The notes under the pieces: model-generated | The model's database searches: none | What the model was told of the DNA's origin: nothing | Seen by the model: only the letters and a program-made list of their open reading frames with translations | DNA from: Sphingomonas sp. SORGH_AS_0879 | Lineage (GTDB): Bacteria; Pseudomonadota; Alphaproteobacteria; Sphingomonadales; Sphingomonadaceae | DNA: 64,000 nt | Assembly: GCF_030819175.1 (NCBI RefSeq) | Contig: NZ_JAUTBJ010000002.1 | Coordinates: 2,800,001-2,864,000 of the forward strand | Direction of reading: 5' to 3' | Shown here: positions 44,619 through 61,883 of the stretch, piece after piece | Layout of the letters: each line of letters starts with the position of its first letter | Position numbering within the stretch: the first letter of the stretch is position 1 | Program-made: the position numbers and the translations under genes

Positions 44619-44695
44619 CGCTGACCCCTCCTGTCGTTTTCGCTTATGCCCGGCATGGTGTAGCCTTGCCGCCGTAAAGGATAGGGACAGGCGGC

Positions 44696-46204
44696 ATGGC
44701 GGACCAGAGCGAAGAGACGGTCGATCTGCTGATCGTCGGCGGCGGGATCAACGGGTCCGGGATCGCCCGCGATGCCGCCGGGCGCGGCCTGTCCGTCCTG
44801 CTGGTCGAGCAGGAGGATCTGGCCAGCCACACCTCCTCCGCCTCGACCAAGCTGATCCATGGCGGGCTGCGCTATCTGGAATATGGTGAGTTCCGCCTGG
44901 TGCGAGAGGCGCTGATCGAGCGCGAAAGGCTGTTGGCGATCGCCCCGCACATCATCTGGCCGCTGTCCTTCGTCCTGCCGCAGAACCGCTCGCCGCGCCC
45001 TGCCTGGATGGTCCGCCTGGGGCTGTTCCTCTACGATCATCTGGGCGGCCGGGTTCGTCTGCCGGGAACACGGACGATCCGGCTCGACCGGTCGCCGCTG
45101 GGCACCGGACTTTCCGCGCGGACCGGCAAGGCGTTCGTCTATTCGGACTGCTGGGTCGAGGACAGCCGCCTGGTCGTCCTCAACGCGCTCGACGCGGCGG
45201 AGCATGGCGCAAGGATCGAGACCCGAACCCGCCTGATCGAGGCACGGCGAGAGGGTGGCGGCTGGATCGCGACGATCGAGGGAGAAGGCGGCCTCCGCAC
45301 GGTTCGGGCCCGCATCCTGGTCAACGCATCGGGCCCCTGGGTCGTCGATGTGATCGGGCGGACGCACGGTACGCGAAGGGATCGCGGCGTGCGGCTGGTC
45401 AAAGGCAGCCATATCGTCGTGCCGCGCCTCTATGACGGCGAACATGCCTTCATGCTCCAGAATGACGATCGGCGGATCGTCTTCGCCATCCCCTATGAGG
45501 GCCGCTTCACGCTGGTCGGCACCACCGACCAGCCCTGGACCGAGGCTCCGGCCAAGGCATCGATCAGCGCGGGCGAAACCACCTATCTGCTCGACACCAT
45601 CAACCGCTATTTCACCGTGAAGACCGGCGAGGCGGACATCGTGTGGAGCTATGCCGGTATCCGCCCGCTCTACGACGATCACGCCGCCGACGCCTCGGCC
45701 GTGACGCGCGACTATGTCCTCGACCTCGATATCGGTCCGGCGGGTGAGGATCATGCGCCGATGCTCAACATATTCGGCGGCAAGATCACTACCTATCGCA
45801 AGCTGGCCGAACATGCGCTGTCCGAACTCGCCCCCTTCCTGCGCCAAGCGGGCGGCGACTGGACGGCGGGGGCGGCCCTGCCCGGCGGCGACATGGCGGA
45901 TGCGGATTTCGAGCATTTCCTCAGTGAGCTACAGGCTAAATGTCCCGTCCTGCCGCCCGGCCTTTTGCGACGGCTGGCGCGCGCCTATGGGACGCGGGTC
46001 GCCGACCTGCTGGGTACGGCGCAGACCGTGGCGGACCTGGGGCCCGATCTGGGCGGCGGCCTATATGGCGCAGAAGTCGATTATCTGGTCCGCGTCGAAT
46101 GGGCGCGGACGGCGGAGGACATTCTCTATCGCCGAAGCAAGCTGGGCCTGCATGTTCCACATGGCACGGTCGAGTGCCTGACGGAGTATCTCACCGCCGG
46201 ATAG
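44696..46204 (+). CDS. glpD: Glycerol-3-phosphate dehydrogenase (aerobic, FAD-dependent)
   Basis: Membrane-associated flavoprotein that oxidises glycerol 3-phosphate to dihydroxyacetone phosphate and passes electrons to quinone, 502 residues. [21 protein letters not shown] is the FAD-binding start, [20 protein letters not shown] is the GlpD signature, and [17 protein letters not shown] lies near the C-terminal domain. Works directly after GlpK. Confidence 0.97.
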
Positions 46205-46257: not shown

Positions 46258-47022
46258 ATGGTCGTGATGGACAATACACCCACGACGCAGGACCGCCTCT
46301 ACCGGGAACTGGCCCGCACGCTGATCGCCGAACTGGTCGAAGGCCGCTATCCGGTCGGGACGCGCATGCCCGCCGAGCGCGAGCTGGCGGCGCGCTTCGA
46401 CGTCAGCCGTCCGGTCATCCGGGAAGCGCTGATCGCGTTGGAGGTACAGGGTTTTATCGAAGTCCGCATCGGTTCCGGCGCGCATGTCGTCGCCCTGCCC
46501 GGCCAAGGCGAAACCCCCGATTTTGACGTGTCCGCCATGGAAGTCGCCGAGGCGCGCCTGTTGTTCGAACCCGAATCGGCAGCACTCGCCGCGTCGCAGA
46601 TCACCGATGCCGAACTGGACGAACTTGCCGCGCTGGTCGACGCGATCGAGAAGGAGAATAACGAGGTCGGTGGCGCTTTTCGGGCCGACCGCGCCTTCCA
46701 CACGCTGATCGCGCGGGTCACCCGGAACAGCGCCATTCTGGAAACGATCGACCGGCTGTGGGAACAGCGGGAACGATCGGCGGAAAGCGCTTTGCTCGAT
46801 GCCAAGGTGCGCGCCATCGACGTGCGTCCCATCGTCGAGCATCACGCCGCCATTCTGGAAGCGCTGCGGGCGCGGAACTCGCTGGCCGCGCGTGCTGCGA
46901 TGCAACGGCATCTGACGGCGGCGCTCGAAGGCCTGCTGATCGCCAGCGAAGCCCGCGCGGTCGCCGAAGTGAGACAGGCGCTCGCGGCGAAGCGCGATCG
47001 AACCGCGCATCTGAAAATCTGA
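46258..47022 (+). CDS. FCD-type GntR-family transcriptional regulator
   Basis: 254-residue regulator. Residues 13-75 are a winged helix-turn-helix (GRYPVGTRMPAERELAARFD, VSRPVIREALIALEVQGFIE), and residues 100-225 an FCD ligand domain, an all-helical fold that usually binds a metal and an organic acid; the candidate metal residues include Asp in AFRADRAFHTLIAR and the His pair in VEHHAAILEAL. FCD regulators usually sense sugar acids and control their catabolic genes. It stands just upstream of the TonB receptor locus, whose promoter region contains inverted repeats that could be its operators. The start could also be ATG 46267; neither has a clear ribosome binding site. Confidence 0.92.
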   Translation: MVVMDNTPTTQDRLYRELARTLIAELVEGRYPVGTRMPAERELAARFDVSRPVIREALIALEVQGFIEVRIGSGAHVVALPGQGETPDFDVSAMEVAEARLLFEPESAALAASQITDAELDELAALVDAIEKENNEVGGAFRADRAFHTLIARVTRNSAILETIDRLWEQRERSAESALLDAKVRAIDVRPIVEHHAAILEALRARNSLAARAAMQRHLTAALEGLLIASEARAVAEVRQALAAKRDRTAHLKI

Positions 47023-47427: not shown

Positions 47428-47720
47428 CCGATAAGACCATAAGATAACAACACCGTGATGCAGGAAGAAACTTTCGGTCTTTCGACCGCGATCGGCGCAC
47501 ATGACCCATAGGTCGGGCGGCGGGCGCAGCGATGGACTTCGGAAGGGTTCCGCGTCCTGACGCAGCAGAAGTGACGGCCCATCCCGATCCGCGAACGCCA
47601 CCGCGTTCCGGTCGATGACGGCCCCTGCCTGCCCGACGGTCACGCACGCCCTATCCACAAAAGTCTCGGGGAAGCCCGGCGCGATCTGCTTCGCGTCGGG
47701 ATCAGAGGGAGGGAATGAGC

Positions 47721-50495
47721 ATGACGATCTCACCGCGCAAGGACGTGTCGCGTCTCCGGCGCAAGCGGTTGCTTCAGACGACGGCGTTTACGGCGGCCTG
47801 GATGGCCTCGGCGATGATCGCGACGCCAGCCCTGGCGCAGACTGCCGCCGCCACGACCGCCGCCACCGTTACCGCCGATACCGGACAGGCGACGCCGCAG
47901 GTCGATACGGCGGGCGACGCCAGCCAGAGCGAGATTACCGTCACCGGCTATCGCCAGAGCATCGCCTCCGCGCTGGCCGCCAAGCGCAACGACATCCGCA
48001 TCACCGACGGCATCTCGTCGGAGGATATCGGCAAGTTTCCCGCCCAGAACGTGACCGAGGCGATCCAGCGGATCGCGGGTGTCCAGATGTCCAACATCAA
48101 CGGGCGCGGCTCGACGATCAGCATCCGTGGCCTGGGCCCGCAATATGCGCGCACCACGATCAACGGCCAGACCTTCGCCAGCGCCGACTTCAAGGACGGC
48201 TTCCGCTACGACATCATCCAGACCGATCTGGCGAGCGCGATCCAAGTCATCAAGTCGCCGACCGCCGACATGGACACGGGCGGCCTGGCGGGCACCGTCA
48301 ACATCGATACGGTCAAGCCGCTCGCCTATAAGGGCCCCAGCTTCATCGCGGGGGTGAAGGCCTATCATTCCGACTATCGCGGCGGCGTCACGCCCAAGGT
48401 CAATGCCGCCTATATCAAGCGCTTCGCCAACGACACGATCGGCGTCATGCTGGATGTCGGCTATCAGAAGCTGAAGGATCGCGGCGACTATCTGTTCATC
48501 AAGAACTGGTATCAGCCGGGCGCGGTGGCGGGCGCCCCCGATGCGCAGGTGCCCGGCAATCTCCGCTACCGCCGGATCGACCGCGATACCGAGCAACTGA
48601 TGGGCAGCGGCGCGATCCAGTGGAAGCCGCAGGACAATTTCGAGGTCCTGCTGCAAGGTGAATATTCGCGTGACCACACCCGTTACGATACGCGCCAGAT
48701 GGTCTTCGGCCGCTGGGCGGCCTCGGCGGTGACGGTCAACAGCACCGCCAACGGCGTCGCCGACAAGATTTCGATCAGCAACTTCAACGTCGACAACAAC
48801 GACCAGCCCGAACTGCGCAAACTCCAGACCCAGGCCTATACCGGCACCGTCAACTGGAGCCCGACCGATACCACGCATATCAAGGCGATCGGCCATTATA
48901 CCCAGGGTGACGCCAAGCTGTACGAATGGGCGACGATCGACGAGGTCCGCTTCGCGAACGGCGGCACGCTCGACATTTCCGATCCGTTCAACGTCAAGTG
49001 GAACACCGCCAGCCTGACCGACGGATCGATCTACAATATGGCGAACCGCACCTGGTACGCCTTTGTCGACGGCGCGACGCATATCCAGTCGGCGCGTGAC
49101 CGCGCGATCCAGACCGACCTGACCCAGGATCTCGACTTCCACGGGATCAAGGCGCTGGTCTTCGGCGCGAAATATCACCATGAGAGCTTCGACACCAAGG
49201 CCTATCGCCACGACCGCGACGCCGATGTCAGCGATCCCGTGACCTATCCCGAATTCGCCTGGATTCCCGACCTGTCGAAGACCGGCGTGCTGGTGAACGA
49301 CTTCCTGGGCGGATCGATGGCGATCCCGGGCAGCTTCCTGTCGGTCAATGCGCCGCTGTGGCAGCAGATCCTGCGCGACAAGGGGATCAGTGTGCCCGAC
49401 ACGCCCGACTGGCCCAACACCTATCGCGTCGACCGTTACATTCCGGCGGTCTATGCGATGGCGAATATCGACGGCACGCTCTTCAACCTGCCGGTGCGCG
49501 GCAATGTCGGCGTCCGCTACGAGCACACCCACCAGAACGTCACCAGCAGCCTGACCAACGGCACCGACAGCAACGCGACGCTGCTCGGCCAGCAGCATGT
49601 CGTGCAGGATTATGGCAACGTCCTGCCCAGCGCCAGCTTCGCACTGGACCTGACGCCGCGCCTGGTCGCCCGCATCGCCGCCGCCAAGGTGCTGGTCCGC
49701 CCGCTGCTCAACAGCCAGACGCAGATGGCCGACACCATCACCCGCGTCACCACCAGCCTGCGCCCCAGCGTCTCCGTCGCGCAAGGCGAGAGCCGCCTGA
49801 AGCCGCTGACCGCCAACCAGTTGGATCTCAGCCTGGAATTCTACCACGGCAAGGGCAATTCGATCAGCGTCGCGGGCTTCTACAAGGCGGTGAAGAACGG
49901 CACCTTCACGCAATTCTACTGCCCCGGCTCGTTCGACGGGGTGGCGCTGAACGGCGTGGTCAGCGATTGCCAGTCGGCGGACCTGAAGACCGATTACAGC
50001 TTCAGCCGGGTGCTCAACGACGACCGGGTCATCCATATCAAGGGCGTGGAATTCTCGGCCTCGCAGAATTTCGATGCCATCCTGCCGGTCAAGGGCTTCG
50101 GCGCGGTCGGCAACGTCACCGTGGTCGATACCGATGCCAGCGCGATCGGCACCGGCTTCAACCTGCGCGACCTGTCCAAGCTGACCTGGAACCTGACGCC
50201 CTATTGGGAAAACGAGATGTTCAGCGTGCGGCTGTCGGTCAATCACCGCAGCTCCTATGTCCAGGACGCGGCGTCGAGCTTCTTCGTCAATGGCGGCCTG
50301 ACCCATGTGGTCCGTCCGCGCACCCAGATGGACCTGGCGCTGGGCTTCAATCCACTGAGCTATCTCAGCTTCACGGCGGGCATCATCAACCTCAACAACA
50401 CCCATGAGGATGCCTATCAGACCAATGCCGACACCTTCCAGTTGGCCAGCCGGACGGGTCGCACCTTCTACCTCTCGGCCTCGACGAGGTTCTGA
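47721..50495 (+). CDS. TonB-dependent receptor, Caulobacter/Xanthomonas (TIGR01782-like) type
   Basis: 924-residue outer membrane transporter driven by TonB. A long basic lead and signal peptide end near ATPALAQ, a TonB-box-like SEITVTGYRQSI follows, and the plug domain shows QNVTEAIQRIAGVQMSNING and ISIRGLGPQYARTTINGQTF. The rest is a 22-strand barrel ending in FYLSASTRF with the terminal Phe. This class usually imports oligosaccharides in gammaproteobacteria and alphaproteobacteria rather than siderophores. I choose ATG 47721 because the GGGAGG site has 7-nt spacing there, against 1 nt for ATG 47715. The GH89 gene follows after a terminator. Confidence 0.93.
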   Translation: MTISPRKDVSRLRRKRLLQTTAFTAAWMASAMIATPALAQTAAATTAATVTADTGQATPQVDTAGDASQSEITVTGYRQSIASALAAKRNDIRITDGISSEDIGKFPAQNVTEAIQRIAGVQMSNINGRGSTISIRGLGPQYARTTINGQTFASADFKDGFRYDIIQTDLASAIQVIKSPTADMDTGGLAGTVNIDTVKPLAYKGPSFIAGVKAYHSDYRGGVTPKVNAAYIKRFANDTIGVMLDVGYQKLKDRGDYLFIKNWYQPGAVAGAPDAQVPGNLRYRRIDRDTEQLMGSGAIQWKPQDNFEVLLQGEYSRDHTRYDTRQMVFGRWAASAVTVNSTANGVADKISISNFNVDNNDQPELRKLQTQAYTGTVNWSPTDTTHIKAIGHYTQGDAKLYEWATIDEVRFANGGTLDISDPFNVKWNTASLTDGSIYNMANRTWYAFVDGATHIQSARDRAIQTDLTQDLDFHGIKALVFGAKYHHESFDTKAYRHDRDADVSDPVTYPEFAWIPDLSKTGVLVNDFLGGSMAIPGSFLSVNAPLWQQILRDKGISVPDTPDWPNTYRVDRYIPAVYAMANIDGTLFNLPVRGNVGVRYEHTHQNVTSSLTNGTDSNATLLGQQHVVQDYGNVLPSASFALDLTPRLVARIAAAKVLVRPLLNSQTQMADTITRVTTSLRPSVSVAQGESRLKPLTANQLDLSLEFYHGKGNSISVAGFYKAVKNGTFTQFYCPGSFDGVALNGVVSDCQSADLKTDYSFSRVLNDDRVIHIKGVEFSASQNFDAILPVKGFGAVGNVTVVDTDASAIGTGFNLRDLSKLTWNLTPYWENEMFSVRLSVNHRSSYVQDAASSFFVNGGLTHVVRPRTQMDLALGFNPLSYLSFTAGIINLNNTHEDAYQTNADTFQLASRTGRTFYLSASTRF

Positions 50496-50565: not shown

Positions 50566-52860
50566 ATGCTGTCCGTGATGACCTCTTCCAAAGCGCTGGG
50601 CCTGATCGGCACCCTGTTTCTCACCGCGTCCGTCGCCCATGCGCAGGCGGATGGCGGTCAGGCCGCCCGGGCGGCGCTGCAAAGGCTGGGCGTGCCGGAA
50701 CGGCAGGTGGCGGTGACGATCCAGTCCTCCCCTACCCCCCGTTACCGGGTGCGGGTGGATCATGATCGCCTGACCGTCCAGGCCTCCTCGCCTGTGGCCG
50801 CCATACGCGGGGTCGCCGCGACCTTGCAGGCGGAGGGGCGGCTGTCGATCAGTTGGGAGGGCCGGCGCGTCGGCCCGATGACCGGGCTGGCCGCGCGGGA
50901 CAGCGGCTGGGTCTCCTCGCCCTTCGGCTTTCGCGCCTATCTGAACACCTGCACCTATGGCTATACCACGCCCTGGTGGGGCTGGCCCCGCTGGGTGCGG
51001 GAGATCGATGACATGGCGGTGCACGGCGTCGACATGCCGCTCGCCATGGAGGGGCAGGATTATGTCTGGCGCAAGCTATGGCGCGAACAGGGCCTGAGCG
51101 AAGCGCAGATCGCGCGGCATTTCTCCGGTCCCGCCTTCCTGCCGTGGCAGCGCATGGGCAATATCGAGGGGTATCGGGCGCCCCTGCCGACCGGGTGGAT
51201 CGACAAGAAGCACGACCTGCAAAAGCATATCCTCGCCCGGATGCGCGATCTGGGCATGACCCCGATCCTGCCCGCCTTCGCCGGTTACGTGCCCAAGGCC
51301 TTTGCCGAGGCGCATCCGAAAGCACGCATCTACAAGATGCGGTCCTGGGAGGGGTTCGAGGGGACCTATTGGCTCGACCCGTCCGATCCGCTCTTCGCGC
51401 CGCTCGCCCGGCGGTTCCTGGAACTCTACACCGCCGAGTACGGGCCGGGGCGATATTATCTGGCCGATGCCTTCAACGAGATGGTGCCGCCGATTGCCGA
51501 GGACGGCAGTGATACCGCCCATGCCTCTTACGGCGATGCGACCGCCAACACCCCCGCACTCGACGCCGCGACCAAGGCGGCGGCACTGCCCCGCGAGGTT
51601 CGCGACGCCCGGCTGGCCGCCTATGGCCAGCGTCTTTATGCCGCGATCGCCGCCGCCGCGCCGGGGGCGACCTGGGTCATGCAGGGCTGGCTGTTCGGCG
51701 CGGACAAGAAATTCTGGACGCCCGACGCCATCGCCGCTTTCCTCAAAGACGTGCCCGACGAGAAGATGCTGATCCTCGACATCGGCAATGACCGCTATCC
51801 CGGCATCTGGAAAACCACCAAGGGCTTCGACGGCAAGAATTGGGTCTATGGCTATGTCCATAATTATGGCGGCAGCAACCCGGTCTATGGCGCGCCCGAT
51901 TTCTACCGCCGCGACGTGGCGGCGCTGTTCACCGACCCGGCGCGCGGGAATGTGCGCGGGTTCGGCATGTTCCCGGAAGGGCTGCACAGCAACAGCCTGG
52001 TCTATGACTATGCCTATGACGTCGCATGGCCGGGCGGCGACATGGCGCTTGGCCCCTGGCTGAGCCGTTACGCCGCCGCGCGCTATGGCCGCAGCGACCC
52101 GGCGATGGTCGCGGCGTGGCAGGATGTGGTCGCGGGCGCCTATGACGTGCGCTACTGGACCCCGCGCTGGTGGAACGAACGGGCGGGCGCGTACCTCTTC
52201 TTCAAGCGCCCCGCCGCCGACGCACCGACCTATCCCGCCGAACCGGGCGACCGCGCGAAACTGCGTGCCGGGATCGAGGCGATGCTGAAACTCGCGCCCG
52301 CTTATAGTCAGAGCCCACTCTACCGCTACGATCTGGTCGACCTGACCCGCCATGCCGCCAGCCTGTCGCTGGACGACAGCGTCAAGGCCGCCGTCGCCGC
52401 CTATCAAAAGGGAGACGTCGCCGCCGGGGACCGGGCGACGGTGCGGATCAAGGCGCTGGCACTCGCCATCGACCATCTGATCGGCGGGCAACAGGAAAGC
52501 CTGGCCAGTTGGATCGCCGATGCGCGAGCCTATGGCGACACCCCTGCTGAAAAGACTGCCTATGAACAGAACGCCAAGGCGCAGGTGACGATCTGGGGCG
52601 GGCGCGGCCATCTGGGCGATTATGCGTCCAAGGCCTGGACGGGCATGTATGCGCACTATTACCTGCCGCGCTGGACCCGCTATCTGACCGAGGCCCGCGC
52701 CGCCGCCCTGGCCAGGCGGCCCGTCGACGATGCCGCCTTCACCGCGAAGCTGCTCGACTGGGAAAAGGCGTGGGTCGCCGATCCCCGCCCCTATAAGGCC
52801 AGCGCGCCTGCCGATCCGGTGGCCGAAGCCCGCGCCCTGATGACGGAGACCGACCGGTGA
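50566..52860 (+). CDS. GH89 alpha-N-acetylglucosaminidase (NAGLU-like)
   Basis: 764-residue secreted glycosidase (signal peptide LIGTLFLTASVAHAQ). It resembles human lysosomal NAGLU over its whole catalytic part: YTTPWWGWPRWVREIDDMAV, the acid/base candidate Glu305 in DAFNEMVPP, WVMQGWLFGADKKFW, YVHNYGGSN and the nucleophile candidate Glu471 in FGMFPEGLHSN, then a C-terminal helical domain. The family removes terminal alpha-linked N-acetylglucosamine, as found in heparan sulfate and some mucin glycans; the acetyl group is required. ATG 50566 follows CGGGGAC; ATG 50578 is an alternative. It overlaps the acetyltransferase gene by 4 bp (GTGA), so the two are made together. Confidence 0.95.
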   Translation: MLSVMTSSKALGLIGTLFLTASVAHAQADGGQAARAALQRLGVPERQVAVTIQSSPTPRYRVRVDHDRLTVQASSPVAAIRGVAATLQAEGRLSISWEGRRVGPMTGLAARDSGWVSSPFGFRAYLNTCTYGYTTPWWGWPRWVREIDDMAVHGVDMPLAMEGQDYVWRKLWREQGLSEAQIARHFSGPAFLPWQRMGNIEGYRAPLPTGWIDKKHDLQKHILARMRDLGMTPILPAFAGYVPKAFAEAHPKARIYKMRSWEGFEGTYWLDPSDPLFAPLARRFLELYTAEYGPGRYYLADAFNEMVPPIAEDGSDTAHASYGDATANTPALDAATKAAALPREVRDARLAAYGQRLYAAIAAAAPGATWVMQGWLFGADKKFWTPDAIAAFLKDVPDEKMLILDIGNDRYPGIWKTTKGFDGKNWVYGYVHNYGGSNPVYGAPDFYRRDVAALFTDPARGNVRGFGMFPEGLHSNSLVYDYAYDVAWPGGDMALGPWLSRYAAARYGRSDPAMVAAWQDVVAGAYDVRYWTPRWWNERAGAYLFFKRPAADAPTYPAEPGDRAKLRAGIEAMLKLAPAYSQSPLYRYDLVDLTRHAASLSLDDSVKAAVAAYQKGDVAAGDRATVRIKALALAIDHLIGGQQESLASWIADARAYGDTPAEKTAYEQNAKAQVTIWGGRGHLGDYASKAWTGMYAHYYLPRWTRYLTEARAAALARRPVDDAAFTAKLLDWEKAWVADPRPYKASAPADPVAEARALMTETDR

Positions 52861-53984
52861 CGACGACCATGCCCAAGCCGGAGCGCTTCGCCTCGCTCGA
52901 CATGTTTCGCGGCGCGACCATCTTCCTGATGATCGTCGTCAACACGGCGGGCGCGGGCGGCGCCTTCACCCAGTTGCAGCATGCGCCATGGTTCGGTTTC
53001 ACACTGGCCGACCTGATCTTTCCGACCTTCCTGTTCGCGGTCGGCAACGCGATGAGCTTCGCGCTCACCCGCCCGATGCCGGAGCACGTCTTCCTGCGCC
53101 GGGTGTCTAAGCGGGCCGCGCTGATCTTCCTGCTCGGCGTGCTGATGTACTGGTTTCCCTTCGTCACCCATCAGGCGGACGGAAGCTGGGTCGCCAAGCC
53201 CTTCGCCGACACGCGCCTGACGGGCGTGCTGCAACGCATCGCGCTTTGCTATCTGCTGGGGTCGCTCTGCGCGCGCTATCTGCGGCCGAGCCATTTGCTG
53301 TGGGTCGCGATCGGGCTCGTCCTCGCGCACTGGGCGATCCTGGTCAGGCTCAGCCCGGCGGGCGAGGCGTTCGGGCGATACCGGAACGCGGGCACCTTGT
53401 TCGATCTGTGGCTGATCGGCCCGGCGCATCTCTATACCAAGGATCACGGCTTCGATCCCGAGGGACTGCTCGGTACCCTGCCCGCCACCGCCAATGTGAT
53501 CGCGGGCTATCTGACCGGCCTCGCCATCCAGCGTTGGGGCAAGCACATGGCCACGGTCGGGCGGCTGGCGGCGATCGGGGCGGGGCTGGTCATCGTCGCG
53601 CTGCTGCTGTCGCCCGTGCTGCCGATCGGCAAGAAGCTGTGGACCGGGTCGTTCGTCGCGCTGACGGTCGGGATCGACCTGATCCTGCTGGGCGTGGCGC
53701 TATGGCTGGTCGAGGTGCGCGGCGTCCGTTTCGGGCGCTCCTTCCTGCAGATGCTGGGGCGCAATCCGCTGGCCATCTATCTCTTCTCCGAACTGCTGGT
53801 CGTCGCGCTGGAACTGATCCATGTCCGGCCCGATACGGGCCTGTACACCTGGGTCGGCGAGACGGTGTTTCAGGGATTCACGACGGGGCCGGTCGGGTCG
53901 CTGCTCTGCGCGCTCGCCTATACGTTGATCTGCTGCGCATTCGGCTGGGCGCTCGACCGGCGCGGGATCATCCTCAAGGTCTGA
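52857..53984 (+). CDS. HGSNAT/NagX-like membrane acetyltransferase (DUF5009 family)
   Basis: 375-residue protein with about ten membrane helices. LDMFRGATIFLMIVVNTAG and LADLIFPTFLFAVGNAMSF align with the start of human HGSNAT, and His42 in QHAPWFGFT matches the active-site His of that enzyme (KHASWNG context). HGSNAT carries acetyl from cytosolic acetyl-CoA across the membrane onto terminal glucosamine of heparan sulfate. Bacterial relatives near N-acetylglucosamine genes are often called NagX and assumed to be transporters, with little direct proof. The GTG start overlaps the GH89 stop. Topologically, acetylation on the periplasmic face would create the substrate for GH89. Confidence 0.88.
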   Translation: MTTTMPKPERFASLDMFRGATIFLMIVVNTAGAGGAFTQLQHAPWFGFTLADLIFPTFLFAVGNAMSFALTRPMPEHVFLRRVSKRAALIFLLGVLMYWFPFVTHQADGSWVAKPFADTRLTGVLQRIALCYLLGSLCARYLRPSHLLWVAIGLVLAHWAILVRLSPAGEAFGRYRNAGTLFDLWLIGPAHLYTKDHGFDPEGLLGTLPATANVIAGYLTGLAIQRWGKHMATVGRLAAIGAGLVIVALLLSPVLPIGKKLWTGSFVALTVGIDLILLGVALWLVEVRGVRFGRSFLQMLGRNPLAIYLFSELLVVALELIHVRPDTGLYTWVGETVFQGFTTGPVGSLLCALAYTLICCAFGWALDRRGIILKV

Positions 53985-54126: not shown

Positions 54127-55404
54127 ATGAATGCCGCAGATGTCTTCACGAAACTGGACGTCGAACTCAAACCCGATCCCTCGCGCACGGTGCTTCGGCC
54201 GTTCAGCTTCGGCTATCCGGCCGCCTTCGATCGCAAACCGACCCGTGCGCAGGATGTGGCGCGGCGCGTCATGGCGCTGGACGCGGAGACGCGCGACCGG
54301 ATGCTGGAACTGCTGCAAGCCGCGATGGAGAAAAGGCATCGCAACGTCGACGGCGTCTTTCTCCGCCGCTTCGACGAGGTGAAGGACGATCTGGGCGATA
54401 TCGCCATCGGGGAAAAGCGCGACCGGCTGCTGCTCGGCGCCTATTTCAGCCAGGAATATGCGTTCGAATCCGCCGCCCTGTTCAACCCCAGCATCGTGAC
54501 CGTGCCCGACCAGAACCCCGATGACGACGATATCCGCTTCCTCCTGTCGCTGCGCGGCGTCGGTGAGGGGCATATCTCCTCGGTCACCTTTCGCACCGGC
54601 AGTTGGGATGGCGGCACCGGCCTCGTCGTCGATCCGCCGAGCCCGCAAGGCGTGCCGCCCCGGATCGAGAGCAAAGAGGGCGGCTGGGTCCGGATGCTCG
54701 CCGACGACAGCGCGGACGTGTCCGAGACGGTGATCTTCCCCATCCTGCCCAGCCAGCGCCAGGGTGTCGAGGATTTGCGGCTGGTGCGTTTCACCGACCA
54801 TGACGGGGTGGAAAGCCTGATCGGCACCTATACGGCATTCGACGGCAATATCGCCCGTTCGGAGATGTTGCGCGGGATCAACCAGCAGCGCTTCGAAATG
54901 CGCGCCCTGGCCGGGGCCTTGGCGGAATATAAGGGCATGGCGCTGTTCCCCCGCCGGATCGGCGACCGCTTCGCGATGATCGGGCGGCAGGACAATGTGA
55001 ACCTGTGGCTGCTCTATTCCGACGACCTGCACATATGGGACGAAGGGATGCGCATCATGGGTCCCAAATATCCGTGGGAGTTCGTGCAGATCGGCAATTG
55101 CGGCTCACCGATCGAGATCGATGAGGGCTGGCTGGTCTTCACCCACGGCGTCGGCATGATCCGGGGCTATTGCGTCGGTGCCTGCCTGCTCGACAAGGAC
55201 AACCCGGCCAAGGTGCTGGGCCGGACCCACTCGCCCCTGCTCTTACCCTCCGCCGAGCAGCGGGGCGGCTATGTCCCCAACGTCACCTATAGCTGCGGCG
55301 CGCTGCTCCACAAACGTCGCATCCTGCTGCCCTATGCGATCGGGGACCAATATACCGCCTTCGCGACCGGCAGCGTCGACGACCTGTTGTCGGTCATGGA
55401 GTGA
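54127..55404 (+). CDS. GH130-family glycoside phosphorylase or hydrolase
   Basis: 425-residue protein without a signal peptide, hence cytoplasmic. FSQEYAFESAALFNPSIVTV, RFLLSLRGVGEGHISSVTFR and FVQIGNCGSPIEIDEGWLVF are characteristic of the five-bladed propeller family GH130, most members of which phosphorolyse beta-mannosides (for example beta-1,2-mannobiose or mannosyl-glucose), while some hydrolyse them. The subfamily and the linkage cannot be told from motifs alone. The start has GAGAGG 8 nt upstream. It is separated from the acetyltransferase gene by 142 bp and may have its own promoter. Confidence 0.88.
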   Translation: MNAADVFTKLDVELKPDPSRTVLRPFSFGYPAAFDRKPTRAQDVARRVMALDAETRDRMLELLQAAMEKRHRNVDGVFLRRFDEVKDDLGDIAIGEKRDRLLLGAYFSQEYAFESAALFNPSIVTVPDQNPDDDDIRFLLSLRGVGEGHISSVTFRTGSWDGGTGLVVDPPSPQGVPPRIESKEGGWVRMLADDSADVSETVIFPILPSQRQGVEDLRLVRFTDHDGVESLIGTYTAFDGNIARSEMLRGINQQRFEMRALAGALAEYKGMALFPRRIGDRFAMIGRQDNVNLWLLYSDDLHIWDEGMRIMGPKYPWEFVQIGNCGSPIEIDEGWLVFTHGVGMIRGYCVGACLLDKDNPAKVLGRTHSPLLLPSAEQRGGYVPNVTYSCGALLHKRRILLPYAIGDQYTAFATGSVDDLLSVME

Positions 55405-55678: not shown

Positions 55679-56611
55679 ATGAAGCTGGAATATTCACGAC
55701 CCGGATCGCACGGCAACTTCGGCGACGATCTGAACGAGTGGTTCTGGGACGAGGTGGCGCCGGGTCTGCTCGACGATGACGATTCGACGATCCTGCTGGG
55801 CATGGGCACGATATTCAGCCGCTGGTTCACCGACCAGTTGCCCGCCGACAGCCAGAAGATCGTGATCGGCAGCGGCGGCGGCAAGGCCGGCGGTCCGCCT
55901 CATCTCGATGACAAGTGGCATATCTATGGCGTCCGGGGGCCGCTGACCGCCGCCTATTCGGGGCTGGGCCAGGAAACCGTCCTGACCGACCCGGCGATGC
56001 TGCTGCGCGACTTTCCCGAATTCTCCGATCTGGGGCCCCGGCGGGGCATCGGCTTCATGCCGCATATCTGGAGCCTGGATCACTGGGACTGGGAAAAGAC
56101 GACCAGGGAGCTCGGACTGGAGTTCATCAATCCGCGCGACGAGGCGAAGGGAACGGTGCGGCGCATCGGCCGCCTGGAGGGCCTGATTACCGAGGCCATG
56201 CACGGTGCGATCGTCGCCGACGCATTCCGCACGCCCTGGATCGCGGTGGGGATCGCACCCGGCTTCGAAACCTCCAAATGGTGCGATTGGGCGGCGTCGC
56301 TGGGCATGGCGATGACGTTCCATTCGGTGCGCGACGTCTATGCGCCGAAACGCTCCACCTCGCTCCGCATCATCAAGGGCGCGATCAAGGAAGGCCTGCA
56401 CCGTGTCGGCATCAAGGCGGGCAAGCGGGCCCGTCCCCGCAGCGGGGAATGGGATGTGGCGGACATGAAGGGCCGACTGCGCTCGCTCATCGAACAGAAG
56501 CCGTACCAGTTGAGCGACGAAGCCAAGCTGGACGCCGCACTCGAACGGACCAGGCAGGCGATCGCCCGGCTGAGGCAGGATGCGGCGTCGGGCAAGTTCG
56601 CCCGGAAATAG
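55679..56611 (+). CDS. Polysaccharide pyruvyl transferase family protein (ExoV-like)
   Basis: 310-residue cytoplasmic protein. SHGNFGDDLNEWFWDEVAPG at the N-terminus, IVIGSGGGKAGG, YGVRGPLTAAYSGLGQETVLTDPAMLL and LEGLITEAMHGAIVADAFRTPWIAVG are the family signatures of pyruvyl transferases that add ketal pyruvate to sugars of exopolysaccharides, such as ExoV in succinoglycan synthesis. No other polysaccharide assembly gene is nearby, so its partner is elsewhere or it works on an intermediate from this locus. AAGGGG precedes the ATG. The 274-bp gap before it shows no gene or clear structure. Confidence 0.88.
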   Translation: MKLEYSRPGSHGNFGDDLNEWFWDEVAPGLLDDDDSTILLGMGTIFSRWFTDQLPADSQKIVIGSGGGKAGGPPHLDDKWHIYGVRGPLTAAYSGLGQETVLTDPAMLLRDFPEFSDLGPRRGIGFMPHIWSLDHWDWEKTTRELGLEFINPRDEAKGTVRRIGRLEGLITEAMHGAIVADAFRTPWIAVGIAPGFETSKWCDWAASLGMAMTFHSVRDVYAPKRSTSLRIIKGAIKEGLHRVGIKAGKRARPRSGEWDVADMKGRLRSLIEQKPYQLSDEAKLDAALERTRQAIARLRQDAASGKFARK

Positions 56612-56665: not shown

Positions 56666-57541
56666 CTATCCCCGCCCGTCCAGCCGATGGTCGGGTCCTG
56701 CGGGATAGGCCACGCGAAACCCGATATGCGATGTCGGCAGGTCACGCTCCTGCGCCTGATAGGCGGCGGGTCGGAAATTGGCGCAATAGTTCATCGCGCA
56801 CAGATAGCTCCCGCCCTTGACCAGCCCGACCTGCCCGTCGCCCGCCACCCATTCCCAGACATTGCCGACCATGTCGTACACCCCCAGGTCGTTCGCCTCG
56901 AAACAGCCGACCGGCGCGATCCCCGCATAGCCGTCATCACCGGTGTCGCGGATCGGAAACACCCCTTCCCAGACATTGGCGCGGGGTTTGCCGTGGTCGA
57001 AGGCCCATTCGACCGGATCGCGAGCGGCGTTCTGGTTGCCGCGCGCCGCCCGCTCCCATTGCTCGGTACTGGGCAGCGCACCTCCCGCCCAGCGCGCATA
57101 GGCGGCGGCATCGTCGCGGTCGACATGGACGACCGGCTCGTCCGCCCGCCCCGTCAGGTCGCTACCCGGCCCCTTAGGATGCCGCCAGTCCGCTCCCTTG
57201 GTCCAGCGCCACCAGCGCGACGCATCGTCGAGCGACACCGGCTGGGTCGGCGCGACGAACAGCGCCGAGGCCCCTTCCCGCTCGGCGCGGGTGCGATGGC
57301 CGGTCGCCGCGACGAAGGCCGCGAACTGGCGGTTGGTCACCTCATGCGCATCGATGCGGAACGCCGCGACATGCACTGCCCGTCCCGGCCGATCCGTGCC
57401 ATCCTCCCCCAGCAGCACCGTGCCCGCCGCAACGGTCACGATCCCATCCCGCGCGATGCAGCGCCGCACCGGCTCGGCCGCCCGCGCGCCCAGCGTCACG
57501 CTGGCCGCCAGACCCAGTAGCAGCGCCGCCGCGATCCTCAT
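56666..57541 (-). CDS. Formylglycine-generating enzyme (SUMF1-like), exported
   Basis: 291-residue protein with a signal peptide (IAAALLLGLAASVTLGARA). FGE oxidises a cysteine in sulfatases to the catalytic formylglycine. The copper-binding pair is present as Cys248 and Cys253 in VKGGSYLCAMNYCANFRPAA, with GVYDMVGNVWEWVAGD upstream and SHIGFRVAY at the end, so unlike many SUMF1-fold relatives this one looks catalytically competent. An extra Cys pair (28 and 213) could form a disulfide. Its ATG overlaps the sulfatase stop by 4 bp (ATGA), and the sulfatase has the matching CxPxR site, so enzyme and client are produced together and mature in the periplasm. Confidence 0.93.
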   Translation of the reverse strand: MRIAAALLLGLAASVTLGARAAEPVRRCIARDGIVTVAAGTVLLGEDGTDRPGRAVHVAAFRIDAHEVTNRQFAAFVAATGHRTRAEREGASALFVAPTQPVSLDDASRWWRWTKGADWRHPKGPGSDLTGRADEPVVHVDRDDAAAYARWAGGALPSTEQWERAARGNQNAARDPVEWAFDHGKPRANVWEGVFPIRDTGDDGYAGIAPVGCFEANDLGVYDMVGNVWEWVAGDGQVGLVKGGSYLCAMNYCANFRPAAYQAQERDLPTSHIGFRVAYPAGPDHRLDGRG

Positions 57542-59307
57542 GGCCGCGCCGCCGGTGCGGGTGCCTGCGCATCGGCGGGGAGCGGCACCACGCCCTTCGC
57601 CCGGGCATAGCGTTCATACGCGCCGACCAGATCGGCGAGCCGCCGGGGTTCGGCGGCGGCGAGGTCCTTGGTTTCGCCGGGATCGGTCGCCACGTTGAAC
57701 AATTGCCATCGCCCGGTGCTGACCCCGCCGCGCGTATAATTGTTGGTCGGGGCGGGCAGGAAGACGACCTTCCAGTCGCCCTTGCGCAGCGCCCGGCGGA
57801 AGAACAGCTCGTAACCCAGCGTCTCGTCGGCGGAACGCACGCCGTTCGCGTTGGCGGCAAGAACGGGGCGCAGGCTATGCCCTTCATGCCGCAGGATCGC
57901 ATGGCCCGCGAAGGTGCCGGGCTGGCGAAGCCCCGCATAGTCGAGCAACGTCGGCGCGACGTCGCGCACGTCCAGATTGGCATTGGCGATCCGCCCGCCG
58001 CCCTTCACCCCGCGCCCGGCGGCGAAGGCGCTGACGCGGATTCCTCCTTCGGTCGTATAGCCCTTGACCAGCCAGGACGGCACCGAGTTGGCCTGGGCCC
58101 AACCGGGGCCATAGCCGACATAGCTGGTCGGCTTGCCGATATTGTCCAGGCTGTTGTCGATGCCCAGCGCCTCGGCGGGCGGTAGCGCCGCATCGGGCGA
58201 GCCGACCTTGAACCGGGGACTGGGTGCCTTGATCTCGTTGCCCTCCGGGCCGTTGTCGGCGAAGAACAGGATGACCGTGTTGTCGAGCCGCCCTTGCGCC
58301 TTCAACGCGGCGATGACGCGACCGACATTCTGGTCCATCCGGTCGACCATCGCGGCATAGACCTCCATCTTGCGCGCCTCGACCGCGCGCTCCTCGGGAC
58401 TCAGCGACGCCCAGGGACGAGCCAATTCGACCGAATGCGCCACCGCATCGGCGGGGACCAGACCCAGCGCCTTTTGCCGCTCGAGCCGCTCGGCCCGCAG
58501 CGCTTCATAGCCCGCATCGTACCGCCCCTTATATTTGGCGATCGTCTCCGCCGGAGCCTGTAGCGGCCAATGCGGAGTGGTGAAGGGCAGATAGGCGAAG
58601 AAGGGCCTTTTGTCCCCCGCCTTGGCCGAGGCGTCCAGATAGCCGATCAGGCGGTCGGCGAAATAATCCGCCGAATAGGCACCCTTGGGCAAGGCCGCAG
58701 GCTTGCCGTCGTCGCGGTAGGTGGGAGCGAGCCCGGCCTTGGTCCAGGCCTCGTTCTGGTCCGCGCCGAAATGGTTGGACAGGCCCTGGAGCAGCGCGAA
58801 GCTATGCTCGAACCCACGCGCGGCGGGCTCGCGGTCGGGGGTCAGGCCCAGATGCCATTTGCCCGCCATCAGCGTGGCATAGCCGCCCGCGCGCAGCAAT
58901 TCGGCGATAGAGGCGACGCGGTCGTTCAGATACCCCTCATAACCCGGTTGCCCGCGCGTCGCCGGGCCCAGCAACTCCGCCATGGTGCCCAACCCCGCCT
59001 CGTGATTGTCGACCCCGCTCATCAGCATCGATCGGGTCGGCGAGCAGGTCGGCGCGGTGTGGAAGCCGGTGAAGCGCACGCCCGAGAGCGCCAGCGCATC
59101 CAGATTGGGGGTCGCGATCTCGCCCCCGAACGCACCCAGATCGGACCAGCCGAGATCGTCCGCGACGATGACCAGGAAGTTGGGCGCGTCCCTGGGCGCC
59201 TGTTGCGGAGCCGCCTCCGCCGGACTGCCGGGCACCGGCTCCGCCAGAAGCGGCGTGGCCAGGATCAAGGCCGGGAGGGCAACTGCCAGGAATTTTCCGC
59301 CGATCAT
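57538..59307 (-). CDS. Exported arylsulfatase (formylglycine-dependent, AtsA-like)
   Basis: 589-residue sulfatase with a signal peptide (FLAVALPALILATPLLAE). VIVADDLGWSDLGAFGG holds the first metal ligands, Cys88 in CSPTRSMLMSG is the residue converted to formylglycine, and MAGKWHLGL and FADNGPEGNEIK carry further site residues. The whole chain closely follows Pseudomonas AtsA (for example YDAGYEALRAERLERQKALGL and NSLDNIGKPTSYVGYGPGWA), which cleaves aryl and alkyl sulfates; that protein is cytoplasmic, this one is exported. Substrate here is open: a sulfated glycan or a small sulfate ester. AGGGGAAG lies 6 nt before the ATG. It is divergent from the second TonB receptor by about 180 bp. Confidence 0.94.
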   Translation of the reverse strand: MIGGKFLAVALPALILATPLLAEPVPGSPAEAAPQQAPRDAPNFLVIVADDLGWSDLGAFGGEIATPNLDALALSGVRFTGFHTAPTCSPTRSMLMSGVDNHEAGLGTMAELLGPATRGQPGYEGYLNDRVASIAELLRAGGYATLMAGKWHLGLTPDREPAARGFEHSFALLQGLSNHFGADQNEAWTKAGLAPTYRDDGKPAALPKGAYSADYFADRLIGYLDASAKAGDKRPFFAYLPFTTPHWPLQAPAETIAKYKGRYDAGYEALRAERLERQKALGLVPADAVAHSVELARPWASLSPEERAVEARKMEVYAAMVDRMDQNVGRVIAALKAQGRLDNTVILFFADNGPEGNEIKAPSPRFKVGSPDAALPPAEALGIDNSLDNIGKPTSYVGYGPGWAQANSVPSWLVKGYTTEGGIRVSAFAAGRGVKGGGRIANANLDVRDVAPTLLDYAGLRQPGTFAGHAILRHEGHSLRPVLAANANGVRSADETLGYELFFRRALRKGDWKVVFLPAPTNNYTRGGVSTGRWQLFNVATDPGETKDLAAAEPRRLADLVGAYERYARAKGVVPLPADAQAPAPAARP

Positions 59308-59489
59308 AGTCTTCCCCTTTCGGGCCGCTCACGCGGCTGCACGCCTGGCATAGCCAGCACCGGCCGGGGGACAATGAACATTCTCTACTACTCCGATAGG
59401 AATTACTTCGTTCGCTTCGGACAACGACATTCATAGCCCTATGCGGGCGGCGCCTGCCGCGCTCCCCGCCACCGTCCGAGGACTTGCTG

Positions 59490-61883
59490 ATGCCGATACC
59501 GAACGCTCCTGGCCGCCGTGCAGCCCTGCTGGCGGGCGCGATGATCCTGACGACACCCGCGCTGGCGCAGCAGGCGCTGGTCGCGCCCGGCACGATCGAT
59601 GAACCGGGTTCGGTCGCCGAGCCGGTGGCCCAGTCCGACGACATCCTGGTCACCGCACGCCGTCGGACCGAGAAGAGCCAGGACGTGCCGATCGCGATCA
59701 ACGCCTTCGGATCGGCGCAGATCGAATCCACCCGCACCTTCAACCTGCGCGACCTTCAGCAACTGACCCCCAGCCTGGTCGTCACCAACACCAATCCACG
59801 CAACACCAGCATCAACATTCGCGGCCTGGGCAACAATGTCGCGGTCTATAATGACGGGCTGGAACCGGCGGTCGGCGTCTATCTGGACGGAGTGTATCTG
59901 GCGCGCCCCGGCCAGACGGTGTTCGACCTCGCCGATCTGGAGCGTATCGAGGTGCTGCGCGGGCCGCAGGGCACGCTGTTCGGCAAGAACACCTCGGCGG
60001 GCGCCGTGGTCGTGACGACGAAGCAGCCGACCTTCGACTGGCAGGCGGGCGGCGATGCCAGCCTGGGCAATTATGATTTCCGACAGCTTCACGCCTATGT
60101 CTCGGGGCCGTTGACCGACACGCTGGCGACGCGGCTGTTCGTGTCGAAGACCGACCGCGACGGCTTCACCCGGAATCGCTTCGACGGACGCTATGGGCAG
60201 GACTTCCACGACCTCAACCTGCGCGGCCAGTTGCTCTACAAGCCGACCGATATTCTCAGCTTGCGGATCATCGGCGATTGGGGGCGGCAGAACAGCTTCA
60301 CGGCGGGCAATATCCTGCTCGGAGCGATCCGGAGTTACGACAATGGCACCCTGTTCCCGAACAACTATTACGACCGCGCCGCCCGATTGGGATACAGCCC
60401 CGTCGCCGCCGATCCCGCGCTTCGAACGACCGACACCGACGCCAACCCGCGCTACCGGATGAACCAGCACGGGGTGAACGTCACCACCGATTGGGATATC
60501 GGCCCCGCCACGCTGACCTCGGTCACCGCCTATCGCGCGTGGAACTGGTATCCGCACAATGACGGCGACGGCACCAGCATCGATGCGGGGGCGGACTTCC
60601 ACCAGAGCAACGAGCAGCGCCAGGTCAGCCAGGAACTGCGCATCGCCTCCAACGGGAACCGCCGTGTCGATTATGTCGCCGGGCTCTATTATCTCTACCA
60701 ATCGATCGAGGCGGAGGCGGTCAATCGCTATGGCAGCCGCGCCGCCGACTGGTTCCTGCCGCCGACCACCAATGCGGCGGTCGGCGCGGCGGCGCTGAAC
60801 GGCTATAACGTCGTCAGCCATTCGCGGCCCGTCACCGACAGCTATGCCGCCTTCGCCCAGACCATCTGGCACATCACCGACGCGGTCGATCTGACCACCG
60901 GCCTTCGTTACACCTATGAAACCAAGTCCGGCTATTTCGACCAGACGGCGACGGGCGCGTCGCTCGCCGGACTGACGGCGGCGCAGCAGGCCGCGGCACA
61001 GACCATCCGTTCCCGCTACGGCGTCACCAATTATTACGAAGCCCGGACCGAGGCGGGTCGGCTGTCGGGGCAGGCGACCCTGTCGTGGAAGGTCGCCGCG
61101 CCGATCCTGGCCTATGCCACCTATGCCCGGGGCAACAAGTTCGGCGGCCTGAACCTCGCCAACATCACCACCACCGGCCAGTTCGCCGCCAACCCCGTGA
61201 TCCGTCCCGAGACGATCGACAGCTATGAGGTCGGGGCCAAGACCACATGGGCGGACGGACGCATCACGGCGAATATCGCGGCCTTCTGGACCGATGTGAA
61301 GGATTACCAGACCACCATCATCGACGTGGAGCGGAACGGCGTCAGCTTCTTCACCAATGCCGCCAAGGTCCGCACGCGCGGGATCGAGGCCGATGTCCGC
61401 GCGACGCCGACCCGCTGGCTGACGCTGTACGGATCGGGCACCTATGACGATGCGCGCTACATCTCCTACGCCAACGCCCCCTGCCCCATAGAGATCACCG
61501 GGCAGACGCTGTGCGACCTGAGCGGACAGCGCCTGCCCGGCGTCTCGCGCTGGGCCGCCTCCGCCGGTGGAGAGGTTCGCACGCCGCTGGGCATGAATTT
61601 CGGTCATGAGGCGGAGCTTTATGCCGGGTCGGACTATAGCTATCGCTCGGGTAGCAACAGCACCGCCAGCCTCAGCCGCTATTCCGATATTCCGGGCTAT
61701 GATCTGCTCAACCTGCGGTTCGGCATCCGGTCGCTGGACGGTCGCTATGACATTCAGTTCTGGGGCCGGAACGTGACGGACTCGACCTATTATCTGTCGC
61801 TGGCGGCCAACAACACGGGGGCGATTTCGGGGACGCTGGGCGATCCCCGGACCTATGGCCTGACGCTGCGGACCAAATGGTAA
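59490..61883 (+). CDS. TonB-dependent receptor
   Basis: 797-residue outer membrane receptor. A signal peptide (RAALLAGAMILTTPALAQQ) is followed by a TonB-box-like DDILVTARRR, the plug with TFNLRDLQQLTPSLVVTNTN, INIRGLGNNVAVYN and LERIEVLRGPQGTLFGKNTS, and a barrel ending in YGLTLRTKW. This is the common sphingomonad type, which covers iron complexes, aromatics and other small substrates, and differs from the first receptor. ATG 59490 has GAGG 9 nt upstream; a TTG at 59484 is also open. Its divergent arrangement with the sulfatase suggests a role in taking up the sulfatase substrate. Confidence 0.92.
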   Translation: MPIPNAPGRRAALLAGAMILTTPALAQQALVAPGTIDEPGSVAEPVAQSDDILVTARRRTEKSQDVPIAINAFGSAQIESTRTFNLRDLQQLTPSLVVTNTNPRNTSINIRGLGNNVAVYNDGLEPAVGVYLDGVYLARPGQTVFDLADLERIEVLRGPQGTLFGKNTSAGAVVVTTKQPTFDWQAGGDASLGNYDFRQLHAYVSGPLTDTLATRLFVSKTDRDGFTRNRFDGRYGQDFHDLNLRGQLLYKPTDILSLRIIGDWGRQNSFTAGNILLGAIRSYDNGTLFPNNYYDRAARLGYSPVAADPALRTTDTDANPRYRMNQHGVNVTTDWDIGPATLTSVTAYRAWNWYPHNDGDGTSIDAGADFHQSNEQRQVSQELRIASNGNRRVDYVAGLYYLYQSIEAEAVNRYGSRAADWFLPPTTNAAVGAAALNGYNVVSHSRPVTDSYAAFAQTIWHITDAVDLTTGLRYTYETKSGYFDQTATGASLAGLTAAQQAAAQTIRSRYGVTNYYEARTEAGRLSGQATLSWKVAAPILAYATYARGNKFGGLNLANITTTGQFAANPVIRPETIDSYEVGAKTTWADGRITANIAAFWTDVKDYQTTIIDVERNGVSFFTNAAKVRTRGIEADVRATPTRWLTLYGSGTYDDARYISYANAPCPIEITGQTLCDLSGQRLPGVSRWAASAGGEVRTPLGMNFGHEAELYAGSDYSYRSGSNSTASLSRYSDIPGYDLLNLRFGIRSLDGRYDIQFWGRNVTDSTYYLSLAANNTGAISGTLGDPRTYGLTLRTKW

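Follow-up and report, generated by a model that had tools for sequence, protein, structure and literature searches.

Two consecutive steps of lysosomal heparan breakdown in humans are catalysed by the membrane protein HGSNAT (PF07786, TmAT superfamily) and by the glycosidase NAGLU, a member of glycoside hydrolase family GH89. A gene pair coding for members of the same two families, with the same catalytic residues and the same predicted chemistry on terminal glucosamine (GlcN) and N-acetylglucosamine (GlcNAc), lies in a 64,000-nucleotide stretch of the genome of Sphingomonas sp. SORGH_AS_0879 (contig NZ_JAUTBJ010000002.1, positions 2,800,001 to 2,864,000), hereafter called the window. The bacterial pair differs from the human one in that its genes overlap, its membrane protein is shorter (375 residues versus 663 for HGSNAT) and lacks the luminal domain of HGSNAT, and its neighbours point away from heparan. 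Judging from the features described below, the pair probably lets plant- and water-associated bacteria acetylate a terminal glucosamine and then cut the sugar off, and the neighbouring genes of its relatives point to the sugar head of a plant sphingolipid, rather than heparan, as the target.

Carbohydrate utilisation loci bring together a TonB receptor, exo-glycosidases, a regulator and sugar catabolism genes in one cluster. The loci of the pair share this make-up, to which the pair adds a predicted modification of the terminal sugar by cytosolic acetyl-CoA, and some relatives further add GH115 and inositol catabolism. The closest described bacterial membrane protein is NagX (NF046061), for which fitness data from five bacteria led in 2022 to the proposal that it is a transmembrane glucosamine transacetylase, His72 of Shewana3_3111 being aligned to His297 of HGSNAT (PMC9007349). 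The acetyltransferase idea is therefore not new, and the enzymatic role for NagX proteins that the initial annotation of the window suggested had already been put forward. According to a 2025 study, DUF5009 groups with HGSNAT and includes no protein of confirmed function (PMC12423673). The membrane protein of the window is homologous to NagX, keeps its catalytic histidine and has GlcNAc-use genes near many of its pair loci; it differs in reaching 131.8 bits on the NagX equivalog model, the cut-off of which is 480. NagX lies in clusters for chitin or free glucosamine, as described in PMC9007349, whereas the window protein is paired with GH89. As for the glycosidase, Bt3590 of Bacteroides thetaiotaomicron is likewise a bacterial GH89 enzyme active on GlcNAc-alpha1,4-glucuronate, but it belongs to a gut glycosaminoglycan setting, and the main text of the paper describing it does not contain the word acetyltransferase (PMC8225759). 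Among the literature matches listed, which comprised titles and starts of abstracts, most subscription papers and all preprints lying outside them, neither a GH89-NagX pair nor bacterial use of the headgroup proposed below was found.

A conserved pair of glycosidase and putative membrane acetyltransferase genes

The pair consists of the following features.

50566..52860, + strand: GH89 alpha-N-acetylglucosaminidase, 764 residues (PF05089 and PF12972; nearest PDB chain 4xwh; Glu305 and Glu471)
52857..53984, + strand: HGSNAT/NagX-like protein, predicted transmembrane N-acetyltransferase, 375 residues, about 10 transmembrane segments, N-terminus inside (PF07786; match to human HGSNAT; His42-Asp52 dyad, Asn29)
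52857..52860, + strand: GTGA, the 4-bp stop/start overlap of the GH89 and membrane protein genes, read from the sequence

Both open reading frames are where the initial annotation had placed them, and the 4-bp GTGA overlap at 52857-52860 that it had reported was confirmed. Relatives of the GH89 protein were collected by a scan of GTDB contigs, which yielded 508; the locus counts given here cover the best 80 of them, leaving out the other 428 and the GH89 proteins of Bacteroidota, and some of the 80 contigs are short. The 80 loci belong to Sphingomonas, Novosphingobium, Sphingobium, Croceibacterium, Niveispirillum, Azospirillum, Asticcacaulis, Caulobacter, Phenylobacterium, Xanthomonas, Stenotrophomonas and a few others. 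The membrane protein gene adjoins the GH89 gene on the same strand in 79 of the 80, downstream in 77 and upstream in two; in the exception, L085, the contig stops at the GH89 gene. The neighbourhood count suggested in the initial annotation thus shows that the pairing is not a local one. An in-frame start codon at the position of the ATGA/GTGA overlap is present in 57 of the 78 downstream pairs, window included. The distance matrices of the two proteins, compared over 77 loci including the window (the set used below for residue conservation as well), are correlated with r = 0.91, as expected if both proteins travel together, with shared species history adding to this value.

The distribution of the two proteins was also compared in samples of whole genomes. 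Among 196 genomes of the order, the membrane protein has relatives at E <= 1e-20 in 20, but above 50% identity in three only; these three are the same that hold this type of GH89. PF05089 was found in four of the 196, in one of 385 genomes of the class and in one of 369 of a gammaproteobacterial sample, the single matches in the latter two samples being the query centres themselves. The GH89 protein of the fourth genome of the order (G082, locus L012) scores 523 bits on the subfamily model, versus at least 1150 for the others when whole, and no membrane protein gene is adjacent to it. This genome thus has another type of GH89 without an adjacent partner, and the pairing therefore belongs to one GH89 subfamily. 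The pairing of the two genes is real, strongly conserved and beyond chance.

The GH89 protein is above the cut-offs for PF05089 (396.5 bits, cut-off 25.5, E 1.1e-118) and PF12972 (193.9 bits, cut-off 25, E 5.5e-57), while the small PF12971 domain remains under its cut-off (21.9 versus 28.3 bits). Its closest PDB chain is human NAGLU (4xwh, E 4.3e-107). Glu305 and Glu471, singled out earlier as candidate catalytic residues, align with two glutamates of this chain, which we take to be the catalytic E316 and E446 of NAGLU, and are unchanged in 13 aligned homologues and in the 77 loci. A putative Sec signal peptide, MLSVMTSSKALGLIGTLFLTASVAHAQ, was recognised by eye only.

The membrane protein contains the HGSNAT_cat domain PF07786 (35.7 bits, cut-off 22) and is matched by human HGSNAT at E 7.8e-18. 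In this alignment His42 falls on the catalytic histidine of HGSNAT, which bears out the correspondence seen in the initial annotation. The DUF5009 label used there does not hold, the score for PF16401 being under the Pfam cut-off (20.3 versus 25 bits), and the own genome has no match to PF16401 at E 0.001. The closest NCBIfam family is named glucosamine N-acetyltransferase. Residue roles were taken from PMC11199644 and carried over by a hand count along the phmmer alignment. According to that source, H297 and D307 of HGSNAT form a dyad, N286 is at the acetyl group, R267, R275, M282 and R345 are acetyl-CoA ligands, R372 and E499 are glucosamine ligands, and some of the mapped residues are involved in gating. 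HGSNAT residues R267, R275, M282, N286, H297 and D307 correspond to R10, R18, M25, N29, H42 and D52, and F310, F313, R345, R372 and E499 to F55, F58, R86, R120 and E202, respectively. All of these are unchanged in the 77 loci with the sole exception of F55, a position taken by F in 61 loci and by Y in 16. Simple hydropathy analysis indicates ten segments and, with the N-terminus inside, 20 lysines and arginines on the inner versus eight on the outer side, an arrangement that would place H42, R120 and E202 on the periplasmic side and R10, R18 and R86 inside. With these residues and this topology the protein has, as far as the sequence tells, what a transmembrane glucosamine N-acetyltransferase requires, and it is predicted to be one of the HGSNAT type.

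Several apparent oddities around the pair were looked at separately. A fusion of GH89 with NagX, hinted at by JGI names on NagX-like proteins, was rejected, as the 120 listed of 969 GH89 homologues have NAGLU domains only. Proteins of the membrane acetyltransferase family bear the JGI name 'alpha-N-acetylglucosaminidase' (P0015, P0018, P0034 and others), perhaps an annotation error taken from the adjoining GH89. A GH2-GH89 fusion was likewise rejected in Xanthomonas arboricola (L081/L091): the open frame has 1721 codons, but Pfam gives the GH89 domains alone, and the upstream stretch is probably an out-of-frame reading of a GH2 gene. In Xanthomonas L087 and L091, one gene of the pair is broken over two frames.

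Neighbouring genes and the candidate substrate

The genes around the 80 loci were clustered into families, and some two dozen neighbour families were inspected. GlcNAc catabolism is represented by NagA (25 loci), SIS/NagB-II-like proteins (22), GntR-UTRA regulators (21), transporters of the major facilitator superfamily (MFS, 17) and the phosphotransferase system (PTS, nine). The glycosidases found by the pair are GH2 (30), GH115 (19), GH29 (11) and, in a few loci, GH43, and inositol genes are found in five. The TonB receptor that precedes the pair in the window belongs to a cluster with members in 62 of the 80 named loci, the window not counted (63 of the 82 sequences in the comparison).

We propose that the TonB receptor imports a short glycan ending in alpha-glucosamine or alpha-N-acetylglucosamine. 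If this end is unacetylated, the HGSNAT-like protein would take cytoplasmic acetyl-CoA into its pore and N-acetylate the sugar on the periplasmic side, with His42 and Asp52 as the dyad, Asn29 holding the acetyl carbonyl and Arg120 and Glu202 holding the glucosamine. GH89 would next cut off GlcNAc, which would enter ordinary nag catabolism. Families, residues, pairing and neighbours are here read from the sequence, and activities, order of steps and substrate are deduced from them; on these grounds, we consider it likely that the pair is an acetylate-then-cleave module at the inner membrane and in the periplasm. That the membrane protein might instead be a GlcNAc transporter devoid of acetyltransferase activity goes back to a remark in the initial annotation that NagX proteins are usually labelled as transporters. 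No result supports it, the catalytic and ligand residues of HGSNAT are conserved, and the MFS and PTS genes just mentioned provide separate uptake in many pair loci, which makes this possibility extremely improbable.

The membrane protein could also play the role of NagX and acetylate free periplasmic glucosamine, GH89 being merely co-expressed and freeing GlcNAc from ends that are already acetylated. The NagX fitness data from the five bacteria concern free glucosamine (PMC9007349), and the name of the closest NCBIfam family fits such a role. So does a paralogue in the own genome (C2:3780433, 40% identical), which is accompanied by genes for a TonB receptor and a GH20 beta-hexosaminidase. Its cluster (C2, about 3774282-3781536; L008:4282-11536) further includes a GDSL hydrolase, LacI and MFS genes being nearby on the opposite strand, and may by analogy be a parallel acetylate-then-cleave arrangement for a sugar with beta-linked GlcNAc. 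However, in the order sample the subfamily of the window's protein is confined to GH89 carriers and tightly paired, which a salvage enzyme need not be, and the own genome already has the other paralogue. Furthermore, GH89 as known frees GlcNAc, not GlcN, so that free glucosamine would need another source. We therefore regard a free-glucosamine role as unlikely. A third HGSNAT_cat protein (53.1 bits) is encoded at C2, about 3915734-3916915 (L009:10734-11915), by a sugar MFS gene and copper-resistance genes.

For the association with GH115 and inositol catabolism, 50 pair genomes were used, namely the own genome and others that we picked from the 80 loci. GH115, an alpha-glucuronidase family, has members close to the pair in Sphingomonas, Novosphingobium, Asticcacaulis and Caulobacter, four genera in all. 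With 64 GH115 copies in total across the 50 genomes, 11 genomes have one within 10 kb of the pair versus 0.4 expected for a random point, and at least 17 have one within 25 kb versus 0.82 expected. IolC with DUF2090 and IolD each occur in the same ten of the 50 genomes. In six of these, from three genera (Sphingomonas sp. Leaf10, Asticcacaulis solisilvae, Caulobacter sp. BK020, A. biprosthecium, Asticcacaulis sp. AC460 and A. benevestitus), iolC is 4.3, 5.3, 5.4, 10.5, 11.6 or 15.1 kb from the GH89 gene; in the remaining four, the iol genes and the pair are on different contigs, apart from one genome in which about 350 kb separate them. With every genus counted a single time, at least one iol proximity in all three would be expected by chance with a probability of about 4e-5, before correction for the families inspected. 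As the pair genomes are related, the formal probabilities computed from counts of genomes are too small.

At locus L062/L107, IolG, IolC-aldolase, IolD, IolE, IolB and the methylmalonate-semialdehyde dehydrogenase subfamily are all over their NCBIfam cut-offs, and a sugar ABC transporter is also present. Most of these iol genes have homologues in the regions of Leaf10, BK020, A. biprosthecium and AC460; in the A. benevestitus region, the search was limited to iolC and iolD. All six iol loci have a GH115 gene at a distance of up to about 25 kb, and five of them have GH92 and three a phosphatase in the region (alkaline phosphatase in two, histidine-type in one). In Caulobacter vibrioides DSM 9893 the gene order is GH89, membrane protein, histidine phosphatase, GH115. 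The position of the pair relative to the iol genes varies by genus, which suggests repeated or rearranged clustering. Six related genomes from three genera thus combine GH89, the acetyltransferase, GH115 and inositol catabolism at distances of no more than about 25 kb; the genome of the window is not among them.

In our judgement, no common glycan other than the headgroup of the plant glycosylinositol phosphoceramides (GIPCs) can be named that joins alpha-GlcN(Ac), alpha-1,2-linked glucuronate (GlcA) and inositol, and the fullest loci contain a gene matching each sugar bond, the phosphate and the inositol of this head. The terminal disaccharide of the GIPC headgroup is the same as that of heparan. 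The GIPC core is GlcNAc(alpha1-4)GlcA(alpha1-2)myo-inositol-1-phosphoceramide, as given in a figure legend of PMC6151786 and in the title of Hsieh et al. 1978 cited there. The heparosan repeat is GlcNAc-alpha1,4-GlcA (PMC8225759), so that glucosamine is alpha1,4-linked to glucuronate in both. As to acetylation, a review shows GIPCs in a figure with an R1 group that can be a hydroxyl, an amine or an N-acetylamine (PMC11907402), and the GlcN forms are predicted to come from the GlcNAc form by deacetylation (PMC9113257). Infection of tomato leaves by Botrytis sets free inositol-phosphate glycans, of which there are two forms one acetyl group apart (PMC11496612).

In the fullest related loci, once GH89 has acted, GH115 would remove the glucuronate, the phosphatase the phosphate, and the iol operon would use the inositol; for the mannose form of GIPC, GH92 would remove the mannose. 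Given the module, we find it reasonably probable that GIPC is its main substrate for the lineage as a whole, and less so for the window's own genome. To the complete explanation, an acetylate-then-cleave module most likely serving GIPC headgroups, we assign a probability of about 0.48. A more tentative extension is that dedicated alpha- and gammaproteobacterial loci dismantle plant GIPC heads from the outside in, by acetylation, GH89, GH92 where needed, GH115, phosphatase and the iol operon.

Several observations weigh against GIPC. Besides the low score on the NagX equivalog model, no ceramide-side phospholipase, that is, an enzyme freeing the head from ceramide, was identified, and the head may thus be freed by plant or fungal enzymes. 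Eighteen of the 80 loci have none of the labelled neighbour families, TonB receptors aside, and iolD was not found in 40 of the 50 pair genomes. In the own genome neither a DUF2090-type iolC nor iolD was found, and its single GH115 is about 900 kb from the pair and about 40% identical to the pair-side GH115s; the window's pair may therefore harvest GlcNAc only or serve a related glycan. Its immediate neighbours there are a GH130 protein, a pyruvyltransferase-like protein, an FGE-like protein and an arylsulfatase-like protein. Finally, the GH115 of L019, the only pair-side GH115 compared with PDB, is closest to BtGH115A, which acts on arabinogalactan (PMC13059095), and GH115 could thus point to another substrate.

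This last similarity would also suit an anchor of the glycosylphosphatidylinositol (GPI) type or another glucosaminyl-inositol glycan (Man-GlcN-alpha1,6-inositol, as for instance in plant arabinogalactan proteins) in place of GIPC. In PMC6151786 the core glucosamine of GPI appears as GlcN without an acetyl group, which would give the acetyltransferase a purpose, and the GH92, phosphatase and inositol genes around the pair are equally compatible with a GPI-type substrate. Against this, the core given in that source contains no glucuronate, which does not agree with the GH115 genes close to the pair in all six iol loci and in four genera, and GH92 is near the pair in few loci only. Such a glycan is thus an improbable substrate.

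GIPCs are called major sphingolipids on Earth, and what is of greatest interest in the present analysis is found in the relatives, namely the candidate loci for the use of the GIPC headgroup. If the GIPC proposal holds, bacteria of leaves and roots would be equipped with a defined way of reaching the headgroup of a major membrane lipid of plants, and the enzymes of the pair would be tools for plant lipid work. They would also offer HGSNAT/NAGLU chemistry without the lysosomal complications, and the lysosomal and the bacterial pair would then be the same two-step answer to GlcN-alpha1,4-GlcA. GIPCs are also targets of the NLP toxins of plant pathogens, which attach to their terminal hexose (PMC6743777), and trimming by resident bacteria could therefore matter.

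The heparan question

The initial annotation had assigned the pair to heparan, as a copy of the two lysosomal steps acting on heparan or heparosan oligosaccharides. The chemistry is indeed the same, the catalytic residues are conserved, and the window has, about 3.6 kb from the pair, a sulfatase gene accompanied by one for an FGE-type protein. This sulfatase is closest to the Pseudomonas arylsulfatase 1hdh (566 bits), and apart from the window its type was found close to the pair in L014 and L052 alone. When the two heparinase-family proteins encoded by the own genome were used as tblastn queries (E 1e-5), none of the 80 loci gave a match; their own genes are distant from the pair, by about 140 kb and 2.6 Mb. 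GH88, which is needed after heparin lyases, was not found in 25 of the 50 pair genomes, the own genome among these; its presence in the other 25 counts for heparan. The same is true of the Hepar_II_III proteins (PF07940), which occur in 44 of the 50; at this frequency their mere presence says little, and their absence near the pair was used instead. The combination expected of a heparan-degradation locus, a heparin-lyase family gene, GH88 and glycosaminoglycan sulfatases beside the pair, was not found. A further point on the side of heparan is that Bt3590, a GH89 enzyme, cuts heparosan oligosaccharides (PMC8225759). Taken together, heparan or heparosan appears quite improbable, slightly more so than a GPI-type glycan. 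The coupling of an HGSNAT-type acetyltransferase to a NAGLU-type glycosidase, as first read, is consistent with the residues, the pairing and the predicted periplasmic position of the site residues; the enzymology was thus read plausibly and the substrate probably misjudged.

Other genes of the window

The window is part of a 4.2-Mb contig in a genome of 4.33 Mb, the closest relatives of which are Sphingomonas. The other features around the pair are as follows.

46312-47022: GntR/FCD regulator, on the upstream side of the pair
47715..50495, + strand: TonB-dependent receptor of the Xanthomonas-Caulobacter type (TIGR01782, 575.7 bits, cut-off 310)
54127..55404, + strand: GH130-family protein, beta-mannoside phosphorylase-like (PF04041, 80.6 bits), downstream of the pair
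55679-56611, + strand: polysaccharide pyruvyltransferase-like protein, barely over the cut-off (25.7 versus 25.3 bits), downstream of the GH130 gene
56666-59307, - strand: FGE-like and sulfatase genes with a 4-bp mutual overlap, the sulfatase closest to arylsulfatase 1hdh
59484-61883: second TonB receptor, beside the FGE-like and sulfatase genes

The gene of the first TonB receptor ends 70 bp upstream of the GH89 gene, and this receptor is the presumed outer-membrane entry route for the glycan. The part played by the GH130-family protein together with the pair is uncertain; at E 1e-30, the window and L014 are the only loci with GH130 close to the pair, and the same two alone have the pyruvyltransferase-like gene there. 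The FGE-like and sulfatase genes and the second TonB receptor look like a separate unit for scavenging sulfate esters. Upstream of the GntR/FCD regulator, genes for glycerol kinase and glycerol-3-phosphate dehydrogenase were recognised by eye at 43128-46204, and L014 contains two open reading frames of the same lengths and layout.

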